The translations under genes were made by a program, and so were the position numbers. Positions 32,054-64,000 of a stretch of 64,000 nt of DNA are shown here, piece after piece. Numbering within the stretch: position 1 is the first letter of the stretch; every line of letters starts with the position of its first letter. The notes beneath the pieces were generated by a model. The model searched no databases and had not been told where the DNA came from. It saw nothing but the letters and a program-made list of their open reading frames with translations. Origin of the DNA: Geobacter sp. AOG1 (GTDB lineage: Bacteria > Desulfobacterota > Desulfuromonadia > Geobacterales > Geobacteraceae). The stretch spans positions 1,314,513 to 1,378,512 of the forward strand of contig NZ_BLIZ01000001.1 in assembly GCF_019972315.1 (NCBI RefSeq). Reading direction: 5' to 3'.

Positions 32054-32059
32054 TGTGCG

Positions 32060-32515: not shown

Positions 32516-32518
32516 CGA

Positions 32519-35547: not shown

Positions 35548-36308
35548 AGCTCACGAGGAAGGATTTCCTGCGCGTTCTGGCCGGCTCCGCGGTAGCGGTC
35601 GGCGCCGGCACACTGGTGCATGCCGTCGGCTCCGCCAACGACAAGGAGTCGGCCGGGTCGACGGTCGGGAAAAAACGCTGGGGGATGGCGGTCGACCTGC
35701 GGAAGTGCCGCGAGGAAAAGGGGTGCGACCTGTGCAGCCGCGCCTGTCATCGGACACACAACGTCCCGCAGATTCCCGACCGGGCCCATGAGGTGAAGTG
35801 GCTCTGGAACGAGCGTCACGACAAGGTGTTCCCCTTCCAGCAGAACGACTACACGCGCCAGGCGCTGGGCGAAACCGTGCCGATTCTCTGCAACCACTGC
35901 ACCAATCCAGCCTGCGTCCGCGTCTGTCCCACCCAGGCCACCTGGAAACGGACGGACGGAGTCGTGATGATGGACTACCACCGCTGCATCGGATGCCGCT
36001 ACTGCATGGCGGCCTGTCCCTACGGCTCGCGCAGTTTCAATTATGTCGATCCCCGGCCCTACCTCGGCACGCCCAATCCCGACTTTCCCACCCGCACGAC
36101 CGGCGTGGTGGAGAAATGCAACTTCTGCGAGGAACGGCTGGCCGACGGCAAGCAGCCGGCGTGCGTGGAGGCGTGTCCGCGCAATGCCATGGTCTTCGGC
36201 GATCTGAACGACGGTAACTCACCCATCCGGCAGCTGCTGAGCGGTCGCTACGCCGTGCAGCGCCAGCCGGAACTTGGGTGCGGGCCGTCCATCTTCTACC
36301 TGGTCTGA
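35544..36308 (+). CDS. dsrO: DsrO, periplasmic ferredoxin-like subunit
   Basis: A 254-residue protein with a Tat-like leader (TRKDFLRVLAGSAVAVGAG); the second arginine of the twin pair is replaced by Lys. Four 4Fe-4S groups can be seen (CDLCSRACHRTHN, CNHCTNPACVRVCPTQA, CIGCRYCMAACPYG, CNFCEERLADGKQPACVEACP). It passes electrons between DsrJ and the membrane subunit DsrP. ATGA overlap with dsrJ. Confidence 0.92.
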   Translation: MKLTRKDFLRVLAGSAVAVGAGTLVHAVGSANDKESAGSTVGKKRWGMAVDLRKCREEKGCDLCSRACHRTHNVPQIPDRAHEVKWLWNERHDKVFPFQQNDYTRQALGETVPILCNHCTNPACVRVCPTQATWKRTDGVVMMDYHRCIGCRYCMAACPYGSRSFNYVDPRPYLGTPNPDFPTRTTGVVEKCNFCEERLADGKQPACVEACPRNAMVFGDLNDGNSPIRQLLSGRYAVQRQPELGCGPSIFYLV

Positions 36309-36315
36309 GGCGGTT

Positions 36316-37473
36316 ATGATCATGCTCGACAAGGCATTTACGGGAAGCGGCAGGTACTGGGGGTGGATTGCCTTTCTCCTGGTCCTGATTGCCGTCGGCT
36401 TCGCCTGCTACCTCCGGCAGCTCGAGTACGGCCTGGGGATAACCGGCCTCTCCCGCGACGTGAGCTGGGGGATCTATATCGCCCAGTTCACCTTCTTCGT
36501 CGGGGTCGCCGCATCGGCGGTCATGGTGGTCCTCCCCTACTACCTCCACAATGTGCAGCAGTTCGCCAGGATCACCATCCTGGGGGAACTGCTGGCGGTC
36601 GCGGCCGTCACCATGTGCATGCTGTTCATCTTCGTGGACATGGGGCAGCCGGCGCGCGTTCTCAACGTGCTCCTCTATCCGACCCCCCATTCCATGATGT
36701 TCTGGGACATGGTCTCCCTCTCCGGCTACCTGGTGCTCAACTTGGTCATCGCCTACGTCATGCTGGCCGCCGAGCAGAAGGGGGTCCCGGCCCCCCACTG
36801 GATCAAACCGGTGATCATCCTTTCCATCCCCTGGGCGGTCAGCATCCACACCGTCACGGCATTCCTCTACAACGGACTCCCCGGCCGCCCGCTCTGGTTC
36901 ACGGCAATCCTCGCCCCCCGTTTCCTGGCATCGGCGTTTGCCTCGGGCCCCGCGCTCCTCATCCTGCTCTGCCTGGCGCTGCGGCGGCTCACGACCTTCG
37001 ATGCGGGACATGAGGCGATCCGCAGGCTGGGGGTGATCGTCGCCTATGCCATGACGGTGAATGTCTTCTTCCTTTTCCTGGAACTGTTCACGGCGCTCTA
37101 CAGCGGCATGCCCGACCATGCCGAGCCGTTCGCGTACCTCTTCTTCGGGATTGACGGCAAGAACGGGCTGGTGCCGGTCATGTGGCTGTCGGTGGTGCTT
37201 GCGCTGGCCGCGCTTCTGGCGCTCCTGGTTCCCCGCTTCCGCCGGAACGAACGGGTACTGGCGCTGGCTTCCCTGGCGGTCTTCGTTTCCCTCTGGCTGG
37301 AAAAGGGGATGGGGCTCATCGTCGCCGGCTTCGTGCCGTCGCCGCTCCGGACGGTGACCTCTTATGCACCGACTGCGCCGGAGTGGGGGATCGTGGGTGG
37401 GGTATGGGCCGTGGGGGCGCTGATGCTGACCCTGTTCTACAAGATCACGGTGTCGGTCCGCGAGGCCGACTGA
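36316..37473 (+). CDS. dsrP: DsrP, NrfD-family membrane subunit
   Basis: A 385-residue protein with ten hydrophobic helices of the NrfD/PsrC family (GLSRDVSWGIYIAQFTFFVGVAASAVMVVLPYY near the N-terminus is the conserved quinone-site helix pair, given here in part for orientation as SRDVSWGIYIAQF). It completes the DsrMKJOP complex as a quinone-reactive anchor for DsrO. The ATG at 36316 follows TGAGGCGG; ATG 36322 is a close alternative. Confidence 0.9.
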   Translation: MIMLDKAFTGSGRYWGWIAFLLVLIAVGFACYLRQLEYGLGITGLSRDVSWGIYIAQFTFFVGVAASAVMVVLPYYLHNVQQFARITILGELLAVAAVTMCMLFIFVDMGQPARVLNVLLYPTPHSMMFWDMVSLSGYLVLNLVIAYVMLAAEQKGVPAPHWIKPVIILSIPWAVSIHTVTAFLYNGLPGRPLWFTAILAPRFLASAFASGPALLILLCLALRRLTTFDAGHEAIRRLGVIVAYAMTVNVFFLFLELFTALYSGMPDHAEPFAYLFFGIDGKNGLVPVMWLSVVLALAALLALLVPRFRRNERVLALASLAVFVSLWLEKGMGLIVAGFVPSPLRTVTSYAPTAPEWGIVGGVWAVGALMLTLFYKITVSVREAD

Positions 37474-39682: not shown

Positions 39683-39764
39683 TTTTCGGCTGGAATTCCC
39701 CCATGGTTGAGATACGCGGGGGCGTGCGGAGCGTTGTTCGGGATTATGAGTGTTGTCGCATGTA

Positions 39765-39798
39765 TTGCATGTAATATTTTATGCAATATTGCAGCTGC
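39765..39798. promoter_or_regulatory. Class A operator before athLS (copy A4)
   Basis: Half-sites TTGCATGTAA (39765-39774) and TTTTATGCAA (39777-39786) form the class A dyad; a weaker third unit starting TTGCA follows at 39789, again 12 bp on. A further GCATGTA lies upstream at 39758. TAATAT (39772-39777) could be a -10, but no good -35 is visible, so an activator may help here. Confidence 0.68.
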
Positions 39799-39841
39799 TG
39801 GGTATTTGTTACACACAACGACGGAAGGAGGTCCACAACGC

Positions 39842-42454: not shown

Positions 42455-42457
42455 AAC

Positions 42458-43273
42458 ATGAAAGCTTTTATCGTTGATCTTTCAATATGCAACGGATGTT
42501 ACTGCTGCCAGATTGGCTGCAAGGATGAGCACGTGGCAAACGACTGGACCCCTTACGCCAAGCCGCAGCCCGATACCGGCCAGTTCTGGATCAAGGTTCA
42601 GGAGACGATCAGAGGCAGCGTGCCAAAGGTCAAGATGGCCTATACCCCGAATATGTGCTTGCACTGCGACGATGCCAAATGCATGGCCCAGTGCAAATCG
42701 GGGGCGATCTACCGGCGCCCGGACGGCCTGATTGTCATAGATCCGCAGAAATGTACCGGCTGCAAGCTGTGCCCGGATACCTGCCCGAACGGCATGATCT
42801 ATTTCAACGAGGACCTCAATATCTCCCAGAAGTGTACCGGTTGCGCCCATCTGATCGACGATAACTGGGATGTTCCCCGTTGCGTTGATTCCTGCCCGAC
42901 CGGAGCCCTGAAATTCGGCGAAGAGTCCGATTTCGCGGAGCAGATCGCCAAAGCCGAGCCGCTCAAGGCCAATAGCTGCAAAGGACGGGTTTACTATCTG
43001 AACGCACCCAAGGATTTTGTCGCCGGAACCATCTATGACCCGGTCGAGAAAGAGGTCGTGATTGGCGCGGTCTGCACTCTGAAGGACAAGGCCGGCGATC
43101 AGACCCTTACGGTGGAAACCGACAACTTCGGTGACTTCTGGTTCAATGACCTGCCCGGTGAAAAACGGGAGTACTCGTTGACCATCGAGAAAAGCGGCAA
43201 AACGCAAGTGATCGATACGATCGACGCGACAAACGCGGTAAATCTGGGTGACATACCGATGAAACTGGTGTAG
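42458..43273 (+). CDS. athS: Transhydroxylase small subunit, 3x[4Fe-4S] plus beta domain
   Basis: A 271-residue electron-transfer subunit. Cysteine groups CNGCYCCQIGC, CLHCDDAKCMAQC, CTGCKLCPDTC and CTGC...CVDSC fit three [4Fe-4S] clusters. The last 85 residues (VIGAVCTLKDKAGDQTLTVETDNFGDFWF...) form a beta-sandwich of carboxypeptidase-regulatory or transthyretin type. Exactly this extra domain and a length of about 274 residues characterise the P. acidigallici transhydroxylase beta subunit, which supports the athL call. A strong terminator follows. Confidence 0.92.
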   Translation: MKAFIVDLSICNGCYCCQIGCKDEHVANDWTPYAKPQPDTGQFWIKVQETIRGSVPKVKMAYTPNMCLHCDDAKCMAQCKSGAIYRRPDGLIVIDPQKCTGCKLCPDTCPNGMIYFNEDLNISQKCTGCAHLIDDNWDVPRCVDSCPTGALKFGEESDFAEQIAKAEPLKANSCKGRVYYLNAPKDFVAGTIYDPVEKEVVIGAVCTLKDKAGDQTLTVETDNFGDFWFNDLPGEKREYSLTIEKSGKTQVIDTIDATNAVNLGDIPMKLV

Positions 43274-46528: not shown

Positions 46529-49417
46529 TCAACCACGCAGGAAAGCGAGGAATTTCCGCATGGTTGAATCTGTATAGTTGTCGGTTAATAGCCTCCTCAC
46601 GCTAGGCCTGAACCCATCGGCAATTTCATAAAAGTTATCGATCTCCTTTTCGCGCTTTAATGTAACGTAACCAGCGCTAACAATTCGATCAAACTTTTTG
46701 TCGGCAAGTCCCGGCACCTTCGTTGAGAATTTAATATGAGCCTTCTTGTTGTCTGTAAAGCGATCTCCTTTGAAAAAACTGTGTAAGAACTTTCTTGCTT
46801 CTGCCTCAACCATACGATTTTCAGCCTGTTTTCCAGCACGCGCGAGTGTCAGAAATTCACGCAGGTCTCCTAGTTCGCAAGTTTGATCGAGCGACTGAGG
46901 ATCAAGAGAGGACGTCTGTATTGACTGATCGAAACAAAGATCGAACGAACAGTACATGAATCGCGTATTCTGAAATTTGCAGGCAAGTAACTTTTTATAT
47001 CCAGTAAAGCGAGAATTGGTAACCGTCAGATTAGAGAAATCCATCGTTGGAAATTCGCCTCGCAAGTGAAGGCCAGATATTGTTACCGATGAACCAATCA
47101 TTGGATTCATGCCGTAAAGCCTGAGGACAGTTTCGGTTATGTGCTGAGCGGAGCCTCCGACAACTTGAGCCGCTAAGTTGAGGAGTGACGCAATTGCACG
47201 ACGAGTCAGTTCTACATCAGTCTGACGAGCGGGGTCTTGCTGTTCCGCGTTTTTTCGAAGGCGTGATATTAGAGTTGCTGCCGACTGAATGAGTTCGTCT
47301 CTGCGCGTTGAAAAGTATCGTTTGAGTTCACGGAACTCGTTGGCTTCTATGCTAAGACGGGCAAGAGATCTTATGAATTCCCGCTCAAGGCTATGGCGAT
47401 ATAATCCATCAAGCAGGTGTACGACCTCGAAGTATGACGCCAGAAAGCTGTAGCGCAACTCAATGCTGTCTTCGGTTTGAACAAGAAGTGGGTTCAGTCC
47501 AATCTTTGCATTAAGCACAGGCCCTCTGTTATCGTAAAGGAGTGTGAGCCTTTCGAGCATCTCTGAAATTGGCCAGCGTTTTGAAAAGTCCGCCACCAGA
47601 CCCGAGAGAAGCTGAACAACATCACCGACAGACAAATCTAGGCCATGTCGAACTTCTTCCCGACGCATCACTGAGTGAATGATGTGGTCAGTAAGATCAT
47701 TGTTGGAGGGGTAGGGAGTGGGGTCCTCACTGATTTCTAGTTCTTCCGACCTGTTATCTTTCAGCCCGTCTTCAACGACCGTAGCTGCAATATCAGCGAA
47801 GAAAGGAACAACCCTTCCGTCTTGATCGTGCAGTTGGACCTTGTCGATCTGTGACAGAACCTTTGCGACAATAACTTTACCGTCGGAGTACTTTTTGAAA
47901 CGACGATTCAGGTATGCTTCACAGGTCGACCTGTCGAAGCCGAGCAAATCGTATCTTTCAATCGAAAGCTCCTCAAGTCTAGCCTGTTCAACAAGCTGGC
48001 TGTTTCGTGTTGTCAGGAGGACAGCGCTACTCCCCAGTTCGCCATGGAATTGAGCGAGTGAGGCGAGGAAGACATCTAGATTAAAAGTGTCTGGGAATAG
48101 CGATACAAACTCGTCTAGACCATCAATGATGACAACTAGGTTGCCACTAAGAAATGCTAGTTCAAACGTGTTGCGATCGAATACTTGGTCGAAATGATGG
48201 TGCCGTGCATAAAGTTCGTATAACTGAAAGACCGAATCAATTCGAGCACCCAGCACACCGTTCTCCGCAACGTATCTCTTGATAGACTCTGCCTGGACCA
48301 GAATTACTGATGAGTGCAGGTCTTGCCTATTGTGAAGAGTTGCGGCAACAGCAAGACAAAGTGATGTCTTGCCCATCCCGCCTGAAGCAATAACTAGATG
48401 AGCGCTCGTAGACGATGGTTGTTGCAGTTGGTTAACGAGCAAATCCCTTGCAGAAGGTGCAACAACCAGATCACGTTGGTCATTCTCATAGTTGAGACTT
48501 TGATCAGTGTAGTTGGCAATCTCAGAAGGGGGATCAGAGCCCTTCAAACTTTCATCGATGCAGAACTTCCATATATAGTCCTTATATGTGAGCTCATGAA
48601 TTTGTGTACGAATGCCAGCCTGACTGAATAACCCTGGGATTAACGCCTGTTCAACGCGTCCAGATCGAGGCCGAAGTACCGTAAGGTCGGTAGGCCGAAT
48701 TCCAGATATTTTGAATTGTTCAATTGCGTGGTTCACTGTTTGAGTAATATTGATGTTACTGGCGAGCGCAAGATAATAGGCGAGGGCTGGCGATTTCGTT
48801 TCCCATAGCTCATACTTGATACGATTCGAGCCTGAAAAATTTGTCCCCTGCTCTTTGTTAACGATAGGCCGTCGATTCGTGTGACCAATTCTTATGAGAT
48901 CTTCTACTTTGGTGAACGTGTAAATGTGCTCATCTGATGTAAGACTACGGCGTTTTTGTGGACGTGAAACTGTTGACTCATTTCTTAAGTATTGCAGAAG
49001 GATGGCCTCGGACTCATTGTATCTTTCGTCGACTGTAAAATCGATGTGTAGGTGGCCCTTCAAGTAATTGGGAACGGAGTCGGGTTCTCGCAGAGCAACA
49101 ATTACCTTAGTTTTGTCCTGCTTCTGGAGCCCATCCCAATGAACGGCTGAAGCAAGATATGTCTCAATGCCTACACCGCCTAAACGATTGTCGGCTTTTT
49201 CTTTATACTTCTTTGTCGCGGTAACAATAATGTAGTCTGATTCGTAGATGCCCGCTTCCATAAATTTATTTTTGTCTGTGAGAGCATCTAAGTCGTATCC
49301 ATCCCAAACGACGTGTAGCTCTTTAAATTCTTCCAGCGCGTCGGCTAGCTTCCGAACCCATTCTTTGTGAGTCTCTGAGTCCCAACTGTAAGAGAGGAAT
49401 ATCTTTGTTTTGTTCAT
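46529..49417 (-). CDS. SEFIR-NACHT STAND protein with pentapeptide-like C-terminus
   Basis: A 962-residue protein with NLR-like layout. Residues 1-150 form a SEFIR/TIR-like domain (FLSYSWDSETHKEWVRKLADAL). A NACHT-type NTPase follows, with Walker A ASGGMGKTSLCLAVAA near residue 348 and Walker B LVVIIDGLDEF near 428. After a long helical region, residues near 785-835 carry pentapeptide-like repeats (GLHLRGEFPTMDFSNLTVTN). Bacterial STAND NTPases with effector domains of this kind act in abortive phage defence by sensing a phage component. SEFIR as the effector suggests nucleotide (NAD-type) signalling or hydrolysis, by analogy with TIR. Confidence 0.8.
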   Translation of the reverse strand: MNKTKIFLSYSWDSETHKEWVRKLADALEEFKELHVVWDGYDLDALTDKNKFMEAGIYESDYIIVTATKKYKEKADNRLGGVGIETYLASAVHWDGLQKQDKTKVIVALREPDSVPNYLKGHLHIDFTVDERYNESEAILLQYLRNESTVSRPQKRRSLTSDEHIYTFTKVEDLIRIGHTNRRPIVNKEQGTNFSGSNRIKYELWETKSPALAYYLALASNINITQTVNHAIEQFKISGIRPTDLTVLRPRSGRVEQALIPGLFSQAGIRTQIHELTYKDYIWKFCIDESLKGSDPPSEIANYTDQSLNYENDQRDLVVAPSARDLLVNQLQQPSSTSAHLVIASGGMGKTSLCLAVAATLHNRQDLHSSVILVQAESIKRYVAENGVLGARIDSVFQLYELYARHHHFDQVFDRNTFELAFLSGNLVVIIDGLDEFVSLFPDTFNLDVFLASLAQFHGELGSSAVLLTTRNSQLVEQARLEELSIERYDLLGFDRSTCEAYLNRRFKKYSDGKVIVAKVLSQIDKVQLHDQDGRVVPFFADIAATVVEDGLKDNRSEELEISEDPTPYPSNNDLTDHIIHSVMRREEVRHGLDLSVGDVVQLLSGLVADFSKRWPISEMLERLTLLYDNRGPVLNAKIGLNPLLVQTEDSIELRYSFLASYFEVVHLLDGLYRHSLEREFIRSLARLSIEANEFRELKRYFSTRRDELIQSAATLISRLRKNAEQQDPARQTDVELTRRAIASLLNLAAQVVGGSAQHITETVLRLYGMNPMIGSSVTISGLHLRGEFPTMDFSNLTVTNSRFTGYKKLLACKFQNTRFMYCSFDLCFDQSIQTSSLDPQSLDQTCELGDLREFLTLARAGKQAENRMVEAEARKFLHSFFKGDRFTDNKKAHIKFSTKVPGLADKKFDRIVSAGYVTLKREKEIDNFYEIADGFRPSVRRLLTDNYTDSTMRKFLAFLRG

Positions 49418-51565: not shown

Positions 51566-52564
51566 ATGGCGACGGCGAAAGACTTCTTAATCATTGATTG
51601 TGAGGCGCATACCATGCCTCTCGACTTCAGGAAGCATATCAACTACTACCCTGGCACGCGCTATTTTTCCAAACCCGAAGAATCGCCGACGGGGAGATGG
51701 TGGTGCACCAATCCCGTTACGGGCGAGCGGCGTGAAAAGCCGGCCGACTGGACCAAGGAAGGGCTGATTGCCGACATGGACACTGCGGGCATCGACATGG
51801 CCTGCATGCTGCGTGAGTCGTTCCTCGGCCTTTCCTACAACGGCGTTCCCTGCTCCACCAACTACCATGTCATCGAGGCAATGGAGCAGTATCCGAACCG
51901 GATCATCGGCTGCTCCAACGTCGGCCCGCACCTCAACCGCGGCGTCAAGAATGCCATCAAGGAGCTGGAGATCCTCCACACGGAGTACGGTTTCAAGTGC
52001 ACCAAGGTCTATTCGCCGGAAGACGGCGGGCCGATCAACCACAAGGATATGATGCCTTTTTACGAAAGGTGCCAGGAGCTGGGCGTTGTGGTGTTCATCC
52101 ATACCGGCCTCGCCGTCGGAGGGCATTCTGACTATTGCAGACCGATGCAACTTGATGATATATGTTTAGCGTTTCCGGAGCTCAAGATCGTCGCCTACCA
52201 CTTCGGCTGGCCCGAACACGAAACGCTGAACGCCCTTGCCTGGAAGCACAAGAATCTTTATATCGGGATGAGCGGCATGCTCGGACCGCTCTACTACGCG
52301 CCGGTCAAGCTTGCCCACATGGTCGGCAGCATCATGAACATGATGCTCGGCAGCGAAAAAATCGTGTTCGGCACCGACTGGCCGGCCGCTCCCGCCGATC
52401 TGCAGGTCCAGGCGATCCTCAACCTCAAGATTCCGAAGGATCTGCAGGAAGGGTGGGGATATCCTCCCATCACGGACCAGGATCGGGCGAACATGCTGGG
52501 GATAAATCTGGCGAAGCTCCTGAACATCGAAGTGCCTAAAAAATACAAAAAATGGGTGAAGTGA
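51566..52564 (+). CDS. Amidohydrolase-2 family enzyme, decarboxylase-type metal site
   Basis: A 332-residue TIM-barrel metalloenzyme. The first metal motif is DCEAHT, i.e. Glu-x-His, as in gamma-resorcylate decarboxylase, rather than the His-x-His of hydrolases. VVFIHTG supplies the next histidine and VFGTDWP the catalytic aspartate. Non-oxidative decarboxylation of a hydroxybenzoate (for example gallate to pyrogallol, which would feed athLS) is the attractive option; a ring hydrolase or hydratase is the alternative. First gene of the right-hand half of the island, under a class A operator. Confidence 0.72.
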   Translation: MATAKDFLIIDCEAHTMPLDFRKHINYYPGTRYFSKPEESPTGRWWCTNPVTGERREKPADWTKEGLIADMDTAGIDMACMLRESFLGLSYNGVPCSTNYHVIEAMEQYPNRIIGCSNVGPHLNRGVKNAIKELEILHTEYGFKCTKVYSPEDGGPINHKDMMPFYERCQELGVVVFIHTGLAVGGHSDYCRPMQLDDICLAFPELKIVAYHFGWPEHETLNALAWKHKNLYIGMSGMLGPLYYAPVKLAHMVGSIMNMMLGSEKIVFGTDWPAAPADLQVQAILNLKIPKDLQEGWGYPPITDQDRANMLGINLAKLLNIEVPKKYKKWVK

Positions 52565-53292: not shown

Positions 53293-54639
53293 ATGTCGAC
53301 TTCCGGCGAACATAACCTGGCACTCTCCCTCGCGCAGCGTGTCATCGAGATTCGCACCGCCACCCTGAGCGATGATGCGGTCCGCAAGGTCCGGCAGCAC
53401 CTCCTCGACGGGATGGCATCGGCATTCATCGGCTGTCGGAGCGCGGTCTTCGCTGACATCGCGGCCGGCATCCTCCCCAAGTGGGGTGGGGTTCTTCCCC
53501 GGGGAGAGGACAGCGCCATGGCCTGGGCCTTTGCCATCAACGGCTCCGTGTCCGAGGACGGCTCCCGGGAGGGGGCCTGCCATCCGGCGGCTGTTGTGGT
53601 GCCGGTCATTCTCGCCTTTGGCGAGGGGAAATCACCGGAAACCATCGACCGGGCCATGGTCGCGGGATACGACGTCATGATCCGCCTGGCCCGGGCGGGT
53701 AATCCGCATTTTGCGCGCAAGGGGTTCCATGGCACGGCGGTCACGGCCCCCTTCGGTGCCGCGGCAACGCTGGCGCAACTGCGGGGTTATGATCTGGCGA
53801 CCACCAGCCAAGCCCTCTGTCTTGCCGCCCTGGGTGGTTCGGGCCTGATGGCGGCATTCAAGAACGGCAGCACCCAGCCGCTGCAGGTCGGCTGGGGCGT
53901 GCGAAACGGCGTTGACGCCGCCCTGCTCGCGGAAAAAGGGCATGGGGGGTACGGGAATGTCCTGGAAGAGGGATTCTTCCCGGCATACCTGGAAAAGGGT
54001 CTGCACGAATCGGTCATGGCGCCGCTCGAGAAAGAGTATGCCATCGAAGGGTGTTATCTGAAGCCGTATCCGGGATGTCGCCATATGCATGCCTCCCTGG
54101 AGGCGTTCAGTACCATCGTCGAACGGCACGGGGTCGGGCATGGGGAGATCACGGCCGTCCGGGTGGGGACCTACCGGATTGCCCTGGAGACCGGCATCAA
54201 GAACGTGAAGAAACGTGGCGACGCCTATTTCAACATCCCCTATGCCATCGCCGCCCGGGCCGTTCTCGGAGCTGCCACCTACGATTCCTTTGACGAGAAA
54301 CACTTTGCCGATCCCGATATCGTGCGGATGACCCGCCTCGTCACCGAGTGTGTCGATCCCGACATCGAATCCCGTTATCCCGGGCAGCGCGGGTCCCGCG
54401 TGGAGGTCGAACTGGCCGACGGCAGAACCTTCTCCCACAGCGTCAGCTATCCGCTGGGTGAGCCGGAAGCCCCCCTCTCCCTGGCGGTTACCCGGGATAA
54501 ATTCGTCAGCTGCACGGACGGGTACCTGTCCGATGGCGAGCGTGCCGATATCCTTCGCCGCATGGAAGGGCGTTCGGGCGAACCTGCGGGACCCGATATT
54601 TGCGAAGTGCTGTCGAGGCGCCTTTTTTGTAACCGCTAG
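53293..54639 (+). CDS. MmgE/PrpD-family protein
   Basis: A 448-residue protein of the family that includes 2-methylcitrate dehydratase, cis-aconitate decarboxylase and iminodisuccinate epimerase. Characteristic stretches are HLLDGMASAFIGCRSAVF, SEDGSREGACHPAAVVVPV, FHGTAVTAPFGAAATLAQL and LKPYPGCRHMHASLEA. The activity is likely hydration, dehydration or decarboxylation of a tricarboxylic-like acid; the substrate is unknown. It directly follows gntR in the amidohydrolase unit. Confidence 0.85.
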   Translation: MSTSGEHNLALSLAQRVIEIRTATLSDDAVRKVRQHLLDGMASAFIGCRSAVFADIAAGILPKWGGVLPRGEDSAMAWAFAINGSVSEDGSREGACHPAAVVVPVILAFGEGKSPETIDRAMVAGYDVMIRLARAGNPHFARKGFHGTAVTAPFGAAATLAQLRGYDLATTSQALCLAALGGSGLMAAFKNGSTQPLQVGWGVRNGVDAALLAEKGHGGYGNVLEEGFFPAYLEKGLHESVMAPLEKEYAIEGCYLKPYPGCRHMHASLEAFSTIVERHGVGHGEITAVRVGTYRIALETGIKNVKKRGDAYFNIPYAIAARAVLGAATYDSFDEKHFADPDIVRMTRLVTECVDPDIESRYPGQRGSRVEVELADGRTFSHSVSYPLGEPEAPLSLAVTRDKFVSCTDGYLSDGERADILRRMEGRSGEPAGPDICEVLSRRLFCNR

Positions 54640-54689: not shown

Positions 54690-56348
54690 ATGAAAAGCGA
54701 TGAATGGAAGAAGTCTCTTGAGGCGGATTACGCAAAGCGTGGGCGCAGGAAGCCGGTGTATTACTCCGAGTCCAAGATCGAACTGAATGACGTCTATGAT
54801 CAGGACGATCTCAAGGCGGCCGGCTTCGAGGCTGAAAGGGACATCTCTTTGCCGGGCCAGTATCCGTATACCCGGGGGATATATCCCTCCATGTACCGTG
54901 CCGATTTCTGGGCGATGGGGCAATACGCCGGATTCGGAAACCCGGAAGCTACCAACCTGAGGTACAAGTACCTGATGTCCAAGGGGCAGACCGCCCTGGC
55001 CGTTGCGCTGGATCTTCCGACTCAGCTGGGGGTCGAGTCCGACGATGAACTGGCGGACGGGGAAGTGGGGAAAGCGGGAGTGGCGATCAACAGCCTCAAG
55101 GATATGGAGGCACTGTTCGACGGCATCCCCCTGAATACCACGCGCCAGATCTTCACCACCGCCAATGCCATCGGCCCGATCATGCTGGCCCTCTTCCTTG
55201 CGACGGGGGACAAGCAGGAGGTCGATCCGTCCGAGTATGTCGTGGTACTGCAGAACGATATCCTCAAGGAGTACGTGGCCCGCGGGGCCTATGTCTTCCC
55301 GCCGACCCCCTCCCTGAAATTCGCCGTCGATGCCATCGAGTACTGCACGAAGCACCATCCCAAGTTCAAGCCGATCTGCATCTGCGGTTCCCACATGCGC
55401 CAGGGGGGTGCCACCGCCGCCCAGGAGATCGCGTTCACCCTTGCCAACGCCCAGGCCTATATCGATGAGGCGTTGAGCCGCGGCCTGCATATCGATGATT
55501 TCGCACCGCTTCTGGAGTGCCAGCTATCGGTCCCCATGAACCTGTTCGAGGAGATCTGCAAGTACCGGGCGTTCCGGCGGATGTGGGCGCGCATGATGAA
55601 AGAGCGCTACCATGCGCAAAAAGAAGAGAGCATGAAATGCGTGATCCGCGTCTACACCACCGGCTATACAATGACGGCCCAGCAGCCGATGAACAACATC
55701 GTGCGGGTGACCATGGAATGTCTGGCAGCCATTCTCGGCGGGGTACAGAGCCTCTCCGCCAATGCCATGGACGAGGTCATCTCCATACCGACCGAAAAGG
55801 CCGCCAAGGTAGCACTCATGACGCAGCACATCCTTGCCAACGAGACCGGCATCGCCGACGTGGCGGACCCGCTGGGAGGGTCCTATTACATCGAGTCCCT
55901 GACCAATGAGCTGGAGAAGAATGCGCTGGCCATCATGGAAGAGATCGCCGCCAAGGGGGGCGCCCAGAAAGCCATCGAGGAGGGGACGTACCAGTCCCAC
56001 TGCCGGAAGTCCGCCAGCGAATACCAGCAGCAGATAGAAAGCGGGGAGCGGGTCATCGTCGGGCTGAACAAATTCCAGGATGCCGATGACGTGGTCGACG
56101 CCGAGAGCTTCAAGTCCGAAGAGGGGATTCAGGAGCGGATCATCGCCAAGATGCAGCAGGTCAAGGCGGACCGGGACAACGGTGAGGTCGCCCGTTGCCT
56201 GAAGAAGCTGGAAGAGGATGTGCGGGCCGGCAAAAATACTGTCCCGGCCCTGATCGACTGCGTCAAGGCCTACGCCACCATCGGGGAGATGTGCAAGGTC
56301 CTCGGTGGAGTATGGGGATATTACAAGGAGGGGTCATCATGGATGTAG
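54690..56348 (+). CDS. Acyl-CoA-mutase-like large subunit, atypical active site
   Basis: A 552-residue homologue of the catalytic subunit of B12-dependent methylmalonyl-CoA-type mutases (YPYTRGIYPSMY, LQNDILKEYVAR, SLSANAMDEVISIPTEKAAKVAL). By alignment to the Propionibacterium enzyme, Tyr79, Gln188, Arg198 and His235 keep the positions of Tyr89, Gln197, Arg207 and His244. The usually invariant RxWTxRQ segment is DFWAMGQ, so the equivalents of Arg82, Thr85 and Arg87 are Asp, Ala and Gly. Arg198 suggests a carboxylated substrate, but the CoA contacts look different. The B12 domain is on the next gene, overlapping by 10 bp. Confidence 0.82.
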   Translation: MKSDEWKKSLEADYAKRGRRKPVYYSESKIELNDVYDQDDLKAAGFEAERDISLPGQYPYTRGIYPSMYRADFWAMGQYAGFGNPEATNLRYKYLMSKGQTALAVALDLPTQLGVESDDELADGEVGKAGVAINSLKDMEALFDGIPLNTTRQIFTTANAIGPIMLALFLATGDKQEVDPSEYVVVLQNDILKEYVARGAYVFPPTPSLKFAVDAIEYCTKHHPKFKPICICGSHMRQGGATAAQEIAFTLANAQAYIDEALSRGLHIDDFAPLLECQLSVPMNLFEEICKYRAFRRMWARMMKERYHAQKEESMKCVIRVYTTGYTMTAQQPMNNIVRVTMECLAAILGGVQSLSANAMDEVISIPTEKAAKVALMTQHILANETGIADVADPLGGSYYIESLTNELEKNALAIMEEIAAKGGAQKAIEEGTYQSHCRKSASEYQQQIESGERVIVGLNKFQDADDVVDAESFKSEEGIQERIIAKMQQVKADRDNGEVARCLKKLEEDVRAGKNTVPALIDCVKAYATIGEMCKVLGGVWGYYKEGSSWM

Positions 56349-57148
56349 CGAAACCAACCCGCAGACCGCGGGCGTTGATAGGGAAGATCGGCCTGGACGG
56401 CCACAATCGCGGCGCCTACGTCGTAGCCCACGGCCTCAGTCTCCAGGGGGTCGAGGTTATCTACACCGGCCTGCGTCAGACCGCCTCGACGGTGGCGAAG
56501 GCTGCCGTACAGGAAGACGTGGACGTGATCGGCATCTCCTCCATGGTCGGGGCCCATCTTGCCATCGTCAAGAAGCTGAGAGCCGAGCTGGAAAAGCTGG
56601 ATGCCCTCGATATCCCCATAACCATCGGCGGGATCATCCCGCGGGACGATTACGATCAGCTGTACGCCATGGGGGTCCAGAAGATATATCCCACCGGCAC
56701 GGAGGTGAAGGAGATCGCCGAATACGTTTTTTCACTGGTAACGGAGAAGGAGTGGAAGTGCGCCGTGCCGGGAACCCTGAAGGGAAAGACCCTTCAGCAG
56801 ATGTACCTGGTCGGCACGGAATGTTCCGGCTGCAACCGCACCTATTTCCCGAAGCGTCGCAATTGTCCTCACTGCCTGGACGATGCCCATGTGAAGGAGG
56901 TCGAGCTGAGCCGGACCGGGAAGCTGCAGAGTTTTGTCGTCACCAAGGCGGCTCCCCCCGGCTATTCCGTCCCCCACGCCCAGGGATACGTGACCCTCGG
57001 CGACAACGGGCCGACGCTCTTCACGCTCCTCACGGAGTATGACGAGAGCCAATTGCAGACAGGTTGTACCATGGGTTTGACGTGCGTCGAAACCCGTCGG
57101 GATGAGAACAACGAGCCGATCATCGGTTACCGGTTCAAGCCGGTTTAA
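56339..57148 (+). CDS. B12-binding mutase subunit fused to DUF35 zinc-ribbon/OB domain
   Basis: A 269-residue two-domain protein. Residues 10-140 are the cobalamin-binding small subunit with the lower-ligand motif GLDGHNRGAYVV, then ISSMVG and IGGIIP. Residues 150-269 are a DUF35 module: zinc ribbon CSGCNRTYFPKRRNCPHC and an OB fold. DUF35 proteins normally bind SCP-x thiolases, as BbsA does with BbsB in benzylsuccinate oxidation. The fusion therefore ties the mutase to the thiolase encoded 17 bp downstream. I am not aware of this combination as a described architecture. Confidence 0.88.
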   Translation: MDVAKPTRRPRALIGKIGLDGHNRGAYVVAHGLSLQGVEVIYTGLRQTASTVAKAAVQEDVDVIGISSMVGAHLAIVKKLRAELEKLDALDIPITIGGIIPRDDYDQLYAMGVQKIYPTGTEVKEIAEYVFSLVTEKEWKCAVPGTLKGKTLQQMYLVGTECSGCNRTYFPKRRNCPHCLDDAHVKEVELSRTGKLQSFVVTKAAPPGYSVPHAQGYVTLGDNGPTLFTLLTEYDESQLQTGCTMGLTCVETRRDENNEPIIGYRFKPV

Positions 57149-57165: not shown

Positions 57166-58329
57166 GTGAGAGATACATACGTACTCGGTGTGGGAATGAG
57201 CAATTTCGGCAAGCACCTGGACAAAAGTCTGAAGGATCTTGCCTATGACCCGATATGGGACGCGATCCGCGACTCCAAAATCGATCCCCACGACATCGAC
57301 ATCGCCTTTGTCGGCAATGCCTATGGCGGCGTCCTGCAGGGGCAGGAGTCGGTGCGGGGGCAGGTGATCATGCGCGAAGCGGGGATCACCGGCATTCCGA
57401 TCATCAACGTGGAAAACGCCTGCGCGTCGGGGTCTACGGCATTTTACCTCGCCCACCGCGCCGTTGCCGCGGGGCAGGCCGAACTGGCCCTGGCCGTTGG
57501 AGTGGAAAAGCTTTTCTGCGGCGACACTCCCACGAGCCTCAAGGCGCTCTCGACCTCCACGGACGTGGGGATAGAGGGGCAGATGGGGATGCTCTTCGCC
57601 GGGATCTACGCCATGCGCTTCCGGAGCTACATGGCTAAATACGGCGTCACCCGGGAGCAACTGGCGAAGGTCGCGGCAAAGAACCACTTCCATGGTTCGC
57701 TGAACCCCCATTCCCAGTACCGCAAACCCTATTCCGTGGAAGAGATCCTGGAATCACGGACGATTGCCGACCCGATCACCCTGCTCATGACCTGCCCGCT
57801 GGGGGATGGCGCCGCGGCCCTGCTCGTCGGAACGAAAGAGATGGCGGAGCGGATGGGGAAACGGCCCATCAAGGTGGGGTCGAGCATGCTCGGGAGCTTC
57901 GACATCAGCGGTCGCGAAGAGCTGTCCATCGCGGCACGTACCTCGCGGAAGGCCTATGCCGAAGCAGGGGTAACCGCCAAGGATATCCAGGTCGCGGAGA
58001 TCCATGACGCCGTCGCACCTATCGAGCTCTATCTCTACGAGGAGCTCGGTTTCTGCGAGCCGGGTGGCAGTGGCCGCATGATCGACGACGGGGCGACCCG
58101 CTATGACGGGAAACTGCCGGTCAATACCTCAGGTGGCCTGACGGCCAAGGGGCATCCCGCGGGGGCGACGGGGATTGCCCAGCTTGCCGAAGTCACCTGG
58201 CAGATGCGGGGCGAGGCGGGAGGTCGCCAGATTTCACCCCCGCCGAACGTCGGCATGACGGAAAACGGTGGCGGCAACATGGCGGGAGAGACCGCCGTGG
58301 TCGCGGTCAATATTCTTAAAGGGGAGTAA
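57166..58329 (+). CDS. SCP-x-type thiolase
   Basis: A 387-residue thiolase. The acyl-accepting cysteine lies in VENACASGSTAFYLA, the His pair in EIHDAVAPIELYLYEE and NTSGGLTAKGHPAGATG, and the end GMTENGGGN matches the nondecarboxylating SCP-x group. It would cleave a 3-oxoacyl-CoA with CoA, probably in a complex with the DUF35 domain of the preceding protein. It starts with GTG, with GGGAGGAG 8 bp upstream. Confidence 0.9.
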   Translation: MRDTYVLGVGMSNFGKHLDKSLKDLAYDPIWDAIRDSKIDPHDIDIAFVGNAYGGVLQGQESVRGQVIMREAGITGIPIINVENACASGSTAFYLAHRAVAAGQAELALAVGVEKLFCGDTPTSLKALSTSTDVGIEGQMGMLFAGIYAMRFRSYMAKYGVTREQLAKVAAKNHFHGSLNPHSQYRKPYSVEEILESRTIADPITLLMTCPLGDGAAALLVGTKEMAERMGKRPIKVGSSMLGSFDISGREELSIAARTSRKAYAEAGVTAKDIQVAEIHDAVAPIELYLYEELGFCEPGGSGRMIDDGATRYDGKLPVNTSGGLTAKGHPAGATGIAQLAEVTWQMRGEAGGRQISPPPNVGMTENGGGNMAGETAVVAVNILKGE

Positions 58330-58396: not shown

Positions 58397-59641
58397 ATGG
58401 GAAATCAGATCAAGAAACCATTGGAAGGCATTAGAATTGTAGACCTGACGGCCTGGCTCTCCGGGCCGTACACCACGGAAATCATGGCGCACCTCGGCGC
58501 GGAGGTGATCAAGATCGAAAAGCACGACGGCGGCGACGCCGTCCGCAGCAACGGTCCCTACTTCGGACCCAACGGCATCACCCTCAAGCGCACCGACCCG
58601 CGCGACATCTCCCTCTGCATCCTCAAGCGCTCCCGGGGCAAGAAGAGCGTCTCCCTCAACCTCAAGTCGGAGGAGGGGAAGGATATCCTGCGCAAGCTGA
58701 TCGCCACCGCCGACGTGGTGGCGGAGAACTTCCTGCCGGGGACCATGGAGAAGCTCGGCTTCGGGTATGAGGATCTGAAGAAGATCAAGTCCGACATCAT
58801 CCTCGGGTCCTGCTCCGGTTTCGGCCAGGACGGCCCCTACAAGAATCTGGCCGCCTTCGATCCGGTCGTCGAGGCGATGAGCGGGGTCATGGAGGTTACC
58901 GGTTATGCGGAGAACGCTCCGGTGCGCCTCGGGGTCGCCGGCGGAGATTTGATCTCGGCCCTCTATCTCGCCATCGGCCTGCAGGCTGCGCTGCGCTTTC
59001 GCGACCAGACCGGCAAGGGGCAGCACGTCGATGTCTCCATGCTCGACTCCCTCTTCTCCTTCCTCATGGAAGAGAGCCTCGACGTCTTCCTCGACAACAA
59101 CATCCCGATCCGCACCGGCAACCGGCGCCTGCGTCTCACCCCCTTCAACTCCTACCAGTGCAAGGACGGCTATGCCGTGATCTGCAGCGCGGCCGACAGC
59201 CACTGGGTCGGCCTCTGCAAGGCGATGGGGCGCGAAGAGCTGATCAAGGACCCGCGCTGCGAGAAGCTCGACTACCGGCAGCAGCACGCCGACTTCGTCG
59301 ACGAGACGGTGGAGGCCTGGACCAAGACCCTGACCAAGAAGGAGGTCGTTGCCAAGGTCCGCGCCGCCGGGGTCGCCTCCGGCGAAGTGGCGACCATCCC
59401 CGAGGTCCTGGACGATCCGCAGCTCAAGCATCGCGGCATGATCACCGATCTCTATCATCCGGAGTTCGGCAAGGTAACGGGTGCGGTCGGCCACGATTTC
59501 CCCTTCCGCTTCACCGAGGCCGAAATCGGTTTCGAACTGCCGGGGGGGTACCTGGGAGCGCAGAACGAGGAGGTGTTGTGCGGCATCCTCGGTTACTCCA
59601 AGGACGACCTGGTCAAATTCAAGGCAGACGGTATCATCTGA
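58397..59641 (+). CDS. Class III CoA-transferase (CaiB/BaiF family)
   Basis: A 414-residue enzyme that moves CoA between carboxylic acids. N-terminal GIRIVDLTAWLSGPYTTEIMAHLGAEVIKIEK, LNLKSEEGKDILRKLIATADVVAENF and GFGQDGPYKNLAAFDPVVEAMSGVM are family signatures; Asp155 in AFDPVV occupies the place of the catalytic aspartate. In anaerobic aromatic pathways such enzymes activate acids (BbsEF with succinyl-CoA). Here it probably activates the mutase or thiolase substrate. GAGGAG precedes ATG 58397. Confidence 0.88.
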   Translation: MGNQIKKPLEGIRIVDLTAWLSGPYTTEIMAHLGAEVIKIEKHDGGDAVRSNGPYFGPNGITLKRTDPRDISLCILKRSRGKKSVSLNLKSEEGKDILRKLIATADVVAENFLPGTMEKLGFGYEDLKKIKSDIILGSCSGFGQDGPYKNLAAFDPVVEAMSGVMEVTGYAENAPVRLGVAGGDLISALYLAIGLQAALRFRDQTGKGQHVDVSMLDSLFSFLMEESLDVFLDNNIPIRTGNRRLRLTPFNSYQCKDGYAVICSAADSHWVGLCKAMGREELIKDPRCEKLDYRQQHADFVDETVEAWTKTLTKKEVVAKVRAAGVASGEVATIPEVLDDPQLKHRGMITDLYHPEFGKVTGAVGHDFPFRFTEAEIGFELPGGYLGAQNEEVLCGILGYSKDDLVKFKADGII

Positions 59642-59857: not shown

Positions 59858-61897
59858 ATGTCAAAGATACCCGAACTATTGGCCAAGCCCGGCAAGATAG
59901 GCACGATGGAGCTCAAAAACAGGCTGATCATGCCGGCCATGTGCACCAATTATACCCGCAACGGTCATTTTACCGATGCGGCATGCCATTACTACGGGCT
60001 CCGTGCCCAGGGGGGGGTCGGCCTCATCATCATCGAGGCGGCGGCCATCGACTATCCCATCGGCCGCTCGGTCATCAACTGCGCCATCTCCGACGACTCC
60101 TACATCGCCAGCCACAAGAAGCTGACCGACAGCGTCCATGCCGGGGGGGCCAAGATCGCCCTGCAGATCATGCATTCCGGCCGGCAGACCTCCACGGAGA
60201 CGGCCGGTACGCAGCCACTTTCCTGTTCCTCCTTCGGCAGCGCCGAAGCGCTCGGCTATGCCACGCCACGGGAGATGACGCTGTATGAATGCAAGAAGAC
60301 GCTGCGGCAGTTCGGCGAAGGTGCCCTACGGGCGAAGCAGGCCGGCTACGATGCGGTAGAAGCCCACTTTGCCCACGGCTACATGCTCAGTTCATTCCTT
60401 TCCTCCTTCATCAACAAGCGTACCGACGAGTACGGCGGGATGGAGGGGGGGCTCAAGTTCTGCAGCGAGGTGATCCAGGAGATCAAGCGGACCTGCGGCG
60501 ACGACTATCCGGTGATCTGCCGGATCAATGGCGACGATTACTATCCGGCCGGCGGGGTGACCCACGTCGATTCCCGGATGATATCCGTCGCCCTGGAAAA
60601 GGCCGGCGCCGACATGATCAACGTTTCCTCCGGACTGCGCGAATCCAATCATCGTCTGCACGACCAGACCATGGCATCGCCGCGGGGTTCGTGGGTCTAC
60701 ATGGCGGAGGGGATCAAGAAGACGGTGAAGATTCCGGTCGCCGTCGCCAAGAGAATCTCCGAGGACATGGTGGAAGGTATCCTGGAGAAGAACCAGGCCG
60801 ACTTCGTCTGTATCGGCCGTCCCCAGATATCCGATCCCGACTATGCGAAAAAGATCCTCAGCGGCAACGCGGAGGACATCCTCCCCTGCATCTGGTGCTG
60901 CCAGGGATGCTTCGACGTGCTCTGGATGCTCTATCCGACCACCTGCCTGACCAATCCGGCGGCAGGTCTGCTCGACGAAAAGTCCCTCGACCAGTACGGA
61001 GCCGCGTCCGAGAAGAAAAAAGTCATGGTGGTCGGTGGTGGCCCGGCCGGCCTGGAAGCGGCCCTCATTGCTGCCCGGCGCGGCCATGAGGTGACCCTCT
61101 ATGAACGGTCCGCAAGGATCGGCGGCGCCTACCGCCTTGCGTCCACGTCCCCCACCAAGGCGGAGACCGAGCGCCTCTTCACGTTCTTCGAGCATGCATT
61201 GCCAAAGGCGGGGGTCAAGCTGGTCCTGAATACCGACGTCACCCCCGACCTGGTGGAGCAGGTCAAGCCCGATGTGGCGGTTCTGGCGGTCGGTACGGAC
61301 CCGGCAGTCCCGGCAAAAACCCCCGGTGTCGACGGCAGGAACATTGTCGATGCCCGTGACATCATGAGCGGCAAAGCGACCGTGGGCGAAAAAGTCGTCA
61401 TCTGGACCTGCAGCTACCAGTGCAGCTACACCTGCGGCGCCAAGCCCGCCCCCATCGAGGGGGACCCGACCGGGACCCATTCCAAGTACAGCTACGCCTG
61501 CTGTGCCGGCTATGCCGCGGTCGATACGGCCGAGTACCTGGCCTCCCAGGGGAAACTGGTCAGCATCGTCACCGAGCGCGAGAACGTCGTCCCCGGCATG
61601 GGGTACACTTCGCGCAACTACCTGATCAAGCGGTTCTACCCGGCCAACGTCAGGGTTTGCACCAGCGCCAAGGTGAAAGAGATCAACGAAAACGGCGTCC
61701 TGATCGAGAAGGCCGGCGTCGAGTTCCTCCTGGATGCGGACAGCGTGATCGTAAGCGTCGGCGAGCGCTCCAACAAGACCCTTGCCAAGGCGCTGGAAGG
61801 CAAGGTCAAGGAACTGTACCAGGTGGGTGACGGTGCAAAGGTCGGCAACGCGATGAAGGCGATCGAATCGGCGTTCAAGGTTGCCGTCACGATATGA
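59858..61897 (+). CDS. 2,4-dienoyl-CoA-reductase-like OYE flavoenzyme, Cys-rich insertion
   Basis: A 679-residue three-part enzyme. The N-terminal old-yellow-enzyme barrel (FMN; MELKNRLIMPAM, ALQIMHSGRQTS, YDAVEAHFAHGYMLSSFLS) leads to an Fe-S motif CIWCCQGCF...CLTNP and a FAD motif VMVVGGGPAGLEAAL. The second dinucleotide site, usually GxGxxG, is replaced by a segment with Cys518, 522, 526, 548 and 549 and the sequence CCAGYAAVDTAEYL. It may reduce a conjugated or cyclic enone or enoyl-CoA, but its electron donor may not be NAD(P)H. GCGGAGGA precedes ATG 59858. Confidence 0.85.
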   Translation: MSKIPELLAKPGKIGTMELKNRLIMPAMCTNYTRNGHFTDAACHYYGLRAQGGVGLIIIEAAAIDYPIGRSVINCAISDDSYIASHKKLTDSVHAGGAKIALQIMHSGRQTSTETAGTQPLSCSSFGSAEALGYATPREMTLYECKKTLRQFGEGALRAKQAGYDAVEAHFAHGYMLSSFLSSFINKRTDEYGGMEGGLKFCSEVIQEIKRTCGDDYPVICRINGDDYYPAGGVTHVDSRMISVALEKAGADMINVSSGLRESNHRLHDQTMASPRGSWVYMAEGIKKTVKIPVAVAKRISEDMVEGILEKNQADFVCIGRPQISDPDYAKKILSGNAEDILPCIWCCQGCFDVLWMLYPTTCLTNPAAGLLDEKSLDQYGAASEKKKVMVVGGGPAGLEAALIAARRGHEVTLYERSARIGGAYRLASTSPTKAETERLFTFFEHALPKAGVKLVLNTDVTPDLVEQVKPDVAVLAVGTDPAVPAKTPGVDGRNIVDARDIMSGKATVGEKVVIWTCSYQCSYTCGAKPAPIEGDPTGTHSKYSYACCAGYAAVDTAEYLASQGKLVSIVTERENVVPGMGYTSRNYLIKRFYPANVRVCTSAKVKEINENGVLIEKAGVEFLLDADSVIVSVGERSNKTLAKALEGKVKELYQVGDGAKVGNAMKAIESAFKVAVTI

Positions 61898-61989: not shown

Positions 61990-64000
61990 ATGAAGTATTC
62001 GACGAAGGATGAGCAGCAATATGTGAACTGTACCCTCAGCGGACCGGTCAGGGTCTTTGTCAAGGACAAGAAGATCGTACGTATCCTGCCGCTGGAGTAC
62101 ACCCAGGAAGACGACGCCAAGCCCTGGTCCATAACGGCGCGGGGCGAAACGTTCGTCCGGCCGAACAAGGCCGGCATCGCCTGCTGGGTGCAGGGGAGCA
62201 AGCAGCAGATCTACTCCAAGGACCGCCTGCTCACCCCCCTGAAAAGGGTCGATTTTGATCCGAACGGGGAGCGGAACCCGCAGAACCGTGGCGTTTCCGG
62301 GTACGAGCCGATCACCTGGGACGAGGCCCTGACCATCGTCGCCAACGAGACCGAGCGGGTGAAGGACCAGTACGGGCCGTCCGCCATCGCCGTCACCGGC
62401 TCCTCCCACGACTCCTGGGGGAATATCGGCTACCGGATGAGCGCCCTGGAGCGGTTCTGGAACCTGGTGGGGTGCACCTGGATCGACCATGACCCGGACA
62501 GCTGGCAGGGGTCCTACTGGGGCGCCATCCATTCCTGGGGTTTCCACTGGCGTCTCGGTCAGCCCCCCGCCTTCGACCTCCTGGGGGATACGTTCGAGCA
62601 CACCGACATGATCGTCTTCTGGAGCTCCGATCCCAACACCACCTCCGGCGACTACGCCTGGAACGAGACCGATCACTGGCGCTTCCACATGAAGAAGCTC
62701 GGGATCAAGTTCGTCTTCATCGATCCCCACTGCAACTACACCTCCGTCATCGACGGTGACAAGTGGATCAAGCCCAAGCCTGGCACCGACGTGGCCATGG
62801 CCCTGGCGATTGCCTACACCTGGATCAAGGAGGGGACCTACGACAAAGAGTACATTGCAAGCCACACAGTCGGTTTCGACAAGTGGGAATCCTACGTCAT
62901 GGGTAACGAAGACGGCCAGCCGAAAACCCCCGAGTGGGCCGAGCAGAAAAGCGGCGTAGAGGCGAACGTGATCGTTGCCCTGGCCCGGGAATGGGCGAAG
63001 AAGCGGACCACCCTGGCTGGTGGCGGCCGTTCCGGCATGGGACATGTCATGCGCTCTTCCTACGGCCATGAGTGGTCCCGCGCCATGGTTCTCCTCATGG
63101 GGATGCAGGGGCTCGGCAAGCCGGGCGTCAACTACTACTCCACCACCGGCGGGGCGCCGGCCGATTGGGATTTCTTCTTCCCCGGCTACGCCGACGGCGG
63201 CATCAGCGGCGGCAGCGCCGGCCCGAAGGACCTGGGACCGCGCGGCTTCCCGAAACGGGCCACGGCCAGTCAGATCCGCCAGCGGATCAACCGTGCCTGT
63301 CTGCCGGAATGCGTCATCAAACCGCCGTATACCTGGCGGGGCGTGTACGGCTACTACGGGCAGAGCGCCCAGCAGCAGTTCACCGAGTGCACCTTCCCGT
63401 TCCCCGGCTATTCTGAGATCAAGATGATCTACCGTCAGGGGGCGTCGTATATCGGCACCATGATGGAGACGAACCGGTTTGCCCGCATGTACCGGGACCC
63501 GAAGCTGGAGTTCGTCGTCAACCAGACCATCTACAACGAGCCGGAGGCGAAGTTCGCCGACATCATCTTCCCGGTCTGTACCAACTTCGAGCGGTGGGAC
63601 ATCGGCGAGTGGGCCAAGATTTCCGGCTACTCCAACAAACTGAGCCCGACCAACGCCCGTGTCGTGGTCCTGCAGCAGCAATGCATCCAGCCGCGCGGCC
63701 AGTCGAAACCCGACTACCAGATTTACGCGCTGCTTGCCGAACGGCTCGGAATAGGCGAGCAGTTCACCGAAGGGCATCCGGACGAAATGAGTTGGATCAA
63801 GCGGATGTACGAGGTCTCCGACCTGCCCAAGGTCATCAGCTGGGAGAAGTTCCAGAAGAAGGGGTACTACATCATTCCCCCCAAGATGGACAAGAAGCCG
63901 GCTCCGGCCCTCAGGTGGTTCTACGACCAGCGTCCCATCGACATCCCGGACAAGCCCATGTCCTCAGACCGGCCGACCAACAGGCCGGATGGGTTGGCAC
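61990..64000 (+). CDS. Second transhydroxylase-family molybdoenzyme (cut by right edge)
   Basis: The first 670 residues of a DMSO-reductase-family protein. HDPDSWQGSYWGA has the same Asp-Ser-Trp triplet as athL, and GSSHDSWGN the active-site His, so it belongs to the transhydroxylase/resorcinol-hydroxylase group. N-terminal Fe-S cysteines are lacking. It diverges clearly from athL, so it probably acts on another ring or a later intermediate. GAGGAGGAG precedes the ATG. It follows the flavoenzyme by 92 bp and is probably in its operon; its small subunit should lie beyond the edge. Confidence 0.85.
   Translation, partial: MKYSTKDEQQYVNCTLSGPVRVFVKDKKIVRILPLEYTQEDDAKPWSITARGETFVRPNKAGIACWVQGSKQQIYSKDRLLTPLKRVDFDPNGERNPQNRGVSGYEPITWDEALTIVANETERVKDQYGPSAIAVTGSSHDSWGNIGYRMSALERFWNLVGCTWIDHDPDSWQGSYWGAIHSWGFHWRLGQPPAFDLLGDTFEHTDMIVFWSSDPNTTSGDYAWNETDHWRFHMKKLGIKFVFIDPHCNYTSVIDGDKWIKPKPGTDVAMALAIAYTWIKEGTYDKEYIASHTVGFDKWESYVMGNEDGQPKTPEWAEQKSGVEANVIVALAREWAKKRTTLAGGGRSGMGHVMRSSYGHEWSRAMVLLMGMQGLGKPGVNYYSTTGGAPADWDFFFPGYADGGISGGSAGPKDLGPRGFPKRATASQIRQRINRACLPECVIKPPYTWRGVYGYYGQSAQQQFTECTFPFPGYSEIKMIYRQGASYIGTMMETNRFARMYRDPKLEFVVNQTIYNEPEAKFADIIFPVCTNFERWDIGEWAKISGYSNKLSPTNARVVVLQQQCIQPRGQSKPDYQIYALLAERLGIGEQFTEGHPDEMSWIKRMYEVSDLPKVISWEKFQKKGYYIIPPKMDKKPAPALRWFYDQRPIDIPDKPMSSDRPTNRPDGLA

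Follow-up and report, generated by a model that had tools for sequence, protein, structure and literature searches.

The closest described relatives of the enzyme considered here are the type III aryl-CoA reductases, 2-naphthoyl-CoA reductase (NCR) and AprB-E. They share with it a three-domain fold, FMN, FAD and a 4Fe-4S cluster; the published reports describe about one such cluster per monomer, one-electron donors, and a natural donor that is only postulated (PMC6502838, PMC13101529, PMC13365417, PMC12093976). According to the NCR report, the second alpha/beta domain of NCR lacks an NADPH site and is served by a one-electron donor, thought to be ferredoxin. Residues N540, I542, D569, M626, V653 and K655 form the hollow postulated for ferredoxin docking, in which the donor cluster would lie less than 14 A from FAD (PMC6502838).

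Other members of the superfamily differ in their redox partners. In the same source, the E. coli 2,4-dienoyl-CoA reductase (DCR, FadH) is an NADPH enzyme; trimethylamine and histamine dehydrogenases, which have the three-domain architecture as well, use the one-electron partner ETF instead of NAD(P)H, bind ADP in the place of FAD and release electrons via their single cluster (PMC6502838). A ferredoxin-dependent resorcinol reductase is described as a dearomatising enzyme with a dihydroxybenzene substrate (PMC10470551). Our literature search found no sequence for it, and it is likened to the present enzyme by activity only.

A three-domain old yellow enzyme in Geobacter

The window, i.e. the whole stretch of 64,000 nucleotides of Geobacter sp. 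AOG1 that was analysed, encodes an old yellow enzyme (OYE) of 679 amino acids (Table 1). It belongs to the three-domain Fe-S/FMN OYEs: the FMN barrel, the 4Fe-4S linker, the FAD domain and the second alpha/beta domain are all present, in this order. Pfam assigns residues 387-650 to a flavoprotein domain of the pyridine-nucleotide type, and no NCBIfam family reaches its cut-off among the best 25 of 81 matching families. NCR (PDB 6qkg, E = 3.3e-93) is the best PDB match and the closest solved enzyme by both sequence and fold. FadH (1ps9) shares the fold, the cofactor order and the 4Fe-4S ligands. The linker cysteines typical of DCR, trimethylamine dehydrogenase and NCR are found in 37/37 aligned sequences. 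A second three-domain OYE is encoded in the same genome (G000:C1:242327-244411; L003, L009); it is 34% identical over residues 6-497, has GGKLHG at the glycine loop and no Cys insert.

Table 1. Features of the OYE and of its gene neighborhood (positions in the window).
Feature	Position	Strand	Basis and remarks
Decarboxylase-type Amidohydrolase_2, opening the conserved cluster	51566..52564	+	PF04909 5.7e-29; also in L025, L061
MmgE/PrpD-family protein	53293..54639	+	PF03972/PF19305
Acyl-CoA mutase large subunit	54690..56348	+	TIGR00641 7.8e-176; best PDB 4r3u, 2-hydroxyisobutyryl-CoA mutase
B12-binding mutase subunit fused to ChsH2/DUF35 domain	56339..57148	+	PF02310, PF01796, PF12172
SCP-x/BbsB-like thiolase	57166..58329	+	NF004720 1.3e-111, NF053628 7.9e-77
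CaiB-type CoA-transferase	58403..59641	+	NF052585 1.7e-82
Three-domain OYE, 679 aa	59858..61897	+	open frame, ATG at 59858; PF00724 3.5e-61, PF07992 3.3e-22
FMN-binding TIM barrel, residues 10-337	59885..60868	+	PF00724 stretch
C29, goes with H170/H173/Y175	59942-59944	+	clade alignment
H170-x-x-H173-x-Y175, classical OYE carbonyl-binding pair and tyrosine	60365..60382	+	clade alignment
Known 4Fe-4S site, C344, C347, C351, C363	60887..60946	+	invariant in 11/11 clade members and 26/26 others
FAD-binding GGGPAG loop, residues 393-398	61034..61051	+	G393, G395, G398 in every alignment row
Insert segment, residues 516-554, four invariant Cys	61403..61519	+	alignments; replaces 7-residue NAD(P)H glycine loop
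Strand 2 end, T572-E573-R574; E/D in NAD(P)-type relatives	61571..61579	+	alignment
Pyrogallol-transhydroxylase-like Mo enzyme, large subunit	61990..64000, beyond window	+	4v4c 9.8e-214; full length in L023

Conservation of the cysteine-rich insert

In the window OYE 39 residues separate strand 1 (KVVI) from the helix VDTAEYLA; its relatives, NCR included, have seven there, which makes a net gain of 32. The alignments to NCR and to the two top-scoring NCBIfam models stop at residue 515 or 516; that to NCR resumes at 554. The earlier note had described about 30 extra residues with cysteines at 518, 522 and 526, and this numbering is exact. The segment contains C518 (61409-61411), C522, C526 and C548, spaced as CX3CX3CX21C, and C549 adjoins C548, followed by AGYAA.

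The search for homologues with the same insert, proposed in that note, yielded 11 distinct full-length members, one clade, in all of which the 39-residue length is constant and C518, C522, C526 and C548 are kept. A twelfth homologue, the split gene L018, has the same Cys motif. The window protein has 20 cysteines, nine of which are invariant in the clade: the four 4Fe-4S ligands, the four insert cysteines and C213. Even the most divergent member (L021 in genome G167, 49% identical) keeps the insert cysteines, and C29, C123 and C318 differ there. C549 is replaced by S, M, R, Q or A in other homologues. Thus the CC pair at 548-549 pointed out in the earlier note is not a family feature, as C548 holds and C549 does not, which argues against a redox disulfide between the two.

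Outside its cysteines and edges the insert is conserved to about the same degree as the rest of the protein (14/38 invariant columns in the insert vs 215/679 overall), which counts against the metal centre proposed below. The idea that it is an artefact of frameshift or misassembly, or neutral padding, draws on the single split copy and nothing beyond, and has a negligible probability: it is already refuted by the conservation of the segment in 11/11 homologues. Codon changes within the segment are predominantly synonymous relative to L010 and L011 (6 to 1 and 7 to 6, synonymous to non-synonymous), but the balance is reversed relative to L012 and L013 (10 to 14 and 8 to 11). The split copy itself (L018 3999-6031, Desulfobacteraceae MAG) does not form a single open frame but falls into three pieces; it is a pseudogene or an assembly error.

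A single pattern scan of genome contigs supplied nine of the loci, and genome searches supplied more. Exact duplicates (L019, L020, L022) were skipped, and sequences shorter than 500 amino acids were left out, namely L018 (two pieces), L002 and L043; the latter runs to the contig end and is 62% identical over residues 6-277. The alignment had 42 rows, of which the same-gene rows L034, L028, L030, L032 and L031 were dropped, leaving 37, 11 with and 26 without the insert. The insert-free relatives are homologues among the best-scoring loci of a longer list plus L003 of the same genome, and are not a random sample.

The insert variant is rare and patchily distributed. It was found in 4/395 genomes of the phylum, 3/46 in the class of G286, 2/23 in the class of G167, and 2/58 among relatives; the four sets overlap. 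No members were found among viral contigs. Of 72,556 plasmid records 143 match the enzyme, all below 60% identity (best row 32.6%). Searched as a profile in 177,635 distinct PDB sequences, the insert gave four matches at E up to 10 (best 0.048), all attributable to chance and none to an OYE. In the open-access literature we recognised no description of an OYE with such an insert.

Loss of the nucleotide-binding signature

A glycine loop and an acidic residue at the end of strand 2 are the hallmarks of NAD-binding Rossmann folds. Among the 26 insert-free relatives, the loop is strict GxGxxG in 18, GGNxxG or GGSxxG in seven, and GGKLHG in one, the own-genome L003. FadH keeps it as well (GCGGIG in the alignment) and has no such Cys insert. 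The NADPH loop of the 2,4-dienoyl-CoA reductase type is absent from the window OYE, where the 39-residue insert and xAGYAA stand instead. The residue ending strand 2 is T in all rows of the insert clade, vs E in 23, D in two and H in one of the 26 relatives. Both hallmarks are lost together in the clade, in agreement with the proposed departure from pyridine nucleotide. The wording that the glycine motif was replaced stands for the seven-residue loop, which is displaced by 39 residues, but a degenerate remnant, xAGYAA, survives directly behind the insert, so that the loop is more than simply replaced; C548 precedes this remnant, at the helix start.

In a tree of the 37 rows, computed with the insert columns removed, the 11 insert members form one branch with support 100/100, and therefore one origin is enough to explain them.

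The presence of the same segment in many ordinary relatives, named in advance as a refuting case, was ruled out for those compared: 26/26 keep the seven-residue loop and 0/26 have the segment. Relatives of about 675 amino acids have another insert, after the helix and with no Cys cluster.

One could still imagine that NADH or NADPH is used and bound in a non-canonical manner, the insert closing over the nucleotide. The AG and helix start (AGYAAVDTAE) do survive, and the NADPH-dependent E. coli DCR has the same fold. The AprB-E literature also gives 40% activity of AprC with NADH alone, which counts in favor of this view (among PMC13101529, PMC13365417, PMC12093976). However, the first glycine, the loop length and the acidic residue are lost in every member of the clade, and we consider retained nucleotide use rather improbable.

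Structural models and a putative second metal centre

Two AlphaFold models were built. The full-length model (nine alignment rows) has a mean pLDDT of 60.1, with the insert (519-549) mostly below 50, and was not used further. The model of residues 384-679 (ten rows) has a mean pLDDT of 70.5 and again mostly below 50 over 519-548. It predicts a strand (512-517), a loop, a helix (549-563) and a strand (567-572), i.e. the Rossmann turn would be opened up at the insert. In the structure model, a check proposed in the earlier note, the flanking strand and helix are thus predicted, and the insert itself is modeled with low confidence.

A fold search with this model placed NCR (6qkg) first (Z 25.2, rmsd 3.8, 257 aligned) and, of the remaining proteins, DCR (1ps9) second (Z 22.9, rmsd 4.0, 257 aligned); the model matches the C-terminal FAD/ADP and second alpha/beta domains of both. 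W459, which blocks the NADPH site in NCR, aligns with T437 here. The insert falls between the residues aligned to NCR 536 and 543, and therefore occupies the loop of the postulated ferredoxin hollow. By analogy, a four-Cys metal centre at the insert would stand where the ferredoxin cluster is expected in NCR.

We propose, with a probability of about 0.55, that the former NAD(P)H loop has been rebuilt as a four-Cys metal site, likeliest a second [4Fe-4S] cluster by the FAD, which passes ferredoxin electrons to FAD. Electrons of reduced ferredoxin, or of a ferredoxin-like subunit, would enter at the insert centre, move to FAD and then through the conserved 4Fe-4S cluster to FMN, which would transfer a hydride to a barrel-bound substrate of keto or hydroxy-aromatic type. 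The FAD, 4Fe-4S and FMN sites of this relay are supported by their conserved motifs. We infer the steps from ferredoxin through the insert centre to FAD, and with them metal binding by the insert cysteines, the Fe-S nature of the metal, ferredoxin as the donor and the substrate class.

Several observations argue for the second metal centre. Four of the nine invariant cysteines lie in the insert of a clade that forms one fully supported branch; none of its members retains the GG-loop or the acidic residue of strand 2; and the fold model best matches NCR, an enzyme described as taking one-electron donors with no NADPH site. Another metal centre, one of the roles suggested in the earlier note, is accordingly the likeliest, though putative, role of the four cysteines. 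On the other hand, given the low pLDDT of the insert in both models, the four cysteines may or may not meet, NCR works with no such centre, and a donor of very low potential would be needless for a keto substrate.

To our knowledge, CX3CX3CX21C corresponds to no named Fe-S motif, and zinc is possible. The four cysteines could then only stabilize the enlarged loop, ferredoxin reducing FAD directly as postulated for NCR. Four invariant cysteines fit a Zn(Cys)4 site, and NCR and AprB-E need just one 4Fe-4S cluster to use one-electron donors. We regard such a structural zinc as unlikely: the CX3CX3C spacing is unusual for zinc, and on the side of FAD where electrons are postulated to enter, a site that serves structure alone would be wasteful.

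Possible electron donors

The earlier note had named ferredoxin or a thiol protein, possibly DsrC, as the donor. The likeness to NCR, which is described as having no NADPH site, lends support to a ferredoxin. In G167, the divergent neighbors on the other strand are an aldehyde:ferredoxin oxidoreductase, two ferredoxin-type (Fer4) proteins, a Prismane/CODH-family protein and a flavoprotein; this single case is consistent with ferredoxin chemistry and counts for the second metal centre. Against it, the gene neighborhoods of the other members showed no conserved ferredoxin gene.

A DsrC domain is encoded in the window at 31.7 kb (31745-32044), about 28 kb from the OYE, and DsrC was found in 6/7 carrier genomes searched. 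This speaks for a reading in which the insert cysteines would form a dithiol/disulfide relay fed by DsrC, a thioredoxin-like protein or similar. We judge this very improbable, since C549 is not conserved and the other four cysteines, invariant together, look more like ligands than one redox pair. DsrC in particular is not supported as a donor: carrier G374 (95% complete) has the enzyme and no DsrC match, the congener G431 has DsrC and the insert OYE on different contigs, and the seven carrier genomes searched reveal no constant genomic partnership of the two.

The segment from the DsrC gene onwards (31745 to 37473) also encodes an Fe-S protein resembling DsrK/HdrD, a ferredoxin-type protein and NrfD. 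In the whole genome no match to DsrA exceeded the cut-off, making this an orphan DsrC module. The DsrK, DsrO and DsrP names beside DsrC are presumptive.

Taken together, the earlier reading points the right way on the missing NAD(P)H loop, a probable metal centre and a ferredoxin-type donor, errs on the CC pair, and finds no support for DsrC.

Active site and gene neighborhood

The barrel has what we take to be, by YqjM/OYE numbering, the classical OYE active site. In the insert clade H170 is present in 10/11, H173 in 11/11, Y175 in 11/11 and C29 in 10/11 members. The insert-free relatives mostly lack all of these except the tyrosine (H170 in 2/26, H173 in 1/26). The His pair suggests a non-CoA substrate, unlike those of the type III aryl-CoA reductases.

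The OYE gene is part of a conserved cluster with the order amidohydrolase, regulator, PrpD, mutase, B12/DUF35 subunit, thiolase, CoA-transferase or ligase, OYE and Mo enzyme; an Fe-S subunit and SucCD-like genes follow the transhydroxylase-like Mo large subunit. Other members have a UbiD decarboxylase and, by eye, UbiX and TRAP transporters among their neighbors. The GntR, SucCD, TRAP, UbiX and AMP-ligase labels are presumptive. The classical active site and the neighbor genes together point to a hydroxy-aromatic or cyclic ketone substrate; more broadly, the sequences of the operon and the His pair suggest a keto or hydroxy-aromatic compound (cyclic ketone, phenolic).

The SCP-x-type thiolase gene follows the gene of the B12/DUF35 fusion (56339-57148), and the ChsH2/DUF35 zinc-ribbon/OB domain is the partner domain of SCP-x-type thiolases; this suggests a physical coupling between mutase and thiolase. 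Our guess is that the mutase and the DUF35-thiolase might convert a 4-oxoacyl-CoA to a 2-methyl-3-oxoacyl-CoA and then cleave the product.

The window contains two transhydroxylase-type Mo enzymes with Fe-S subunits, at 39707-43273 and from 61990 onwards (L023 503-3929). The small subunit of the second has a C-terminal carboxypeptidase-regulatory-like domain. A large protein on the minus strand (46529-49417) has, by eye, a TIR/SEFIR-like start and then an NTPase-like part, and is a possible defence gene.

Implications

Tentatively, this OYE branch may have converted the NAD(P)H pocket to a second, built-in [4Fe-4S] cluster and could be the ferredoxin-driven, missing resorcinol-reductase-like ring reductase of an undescribed anaerobic pathway. 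The same joint and equally speculative reading would place in that pathway the transhydroxylase-like Mo enzyme, the B12 mutase with its fused partner domain for a thiolase, and the BbsB-like thiolase. For NCR and AprB-E, three-domain OYEs that break aromatic rings, the natural donor is only postulated, and the insert clade would be a case of natural rewiring where its electrons are postulated to enter. The conserved uncharacterised cluster around it may serve the anaerobic breakdown of keto or hydroxy-aromatic compounds.
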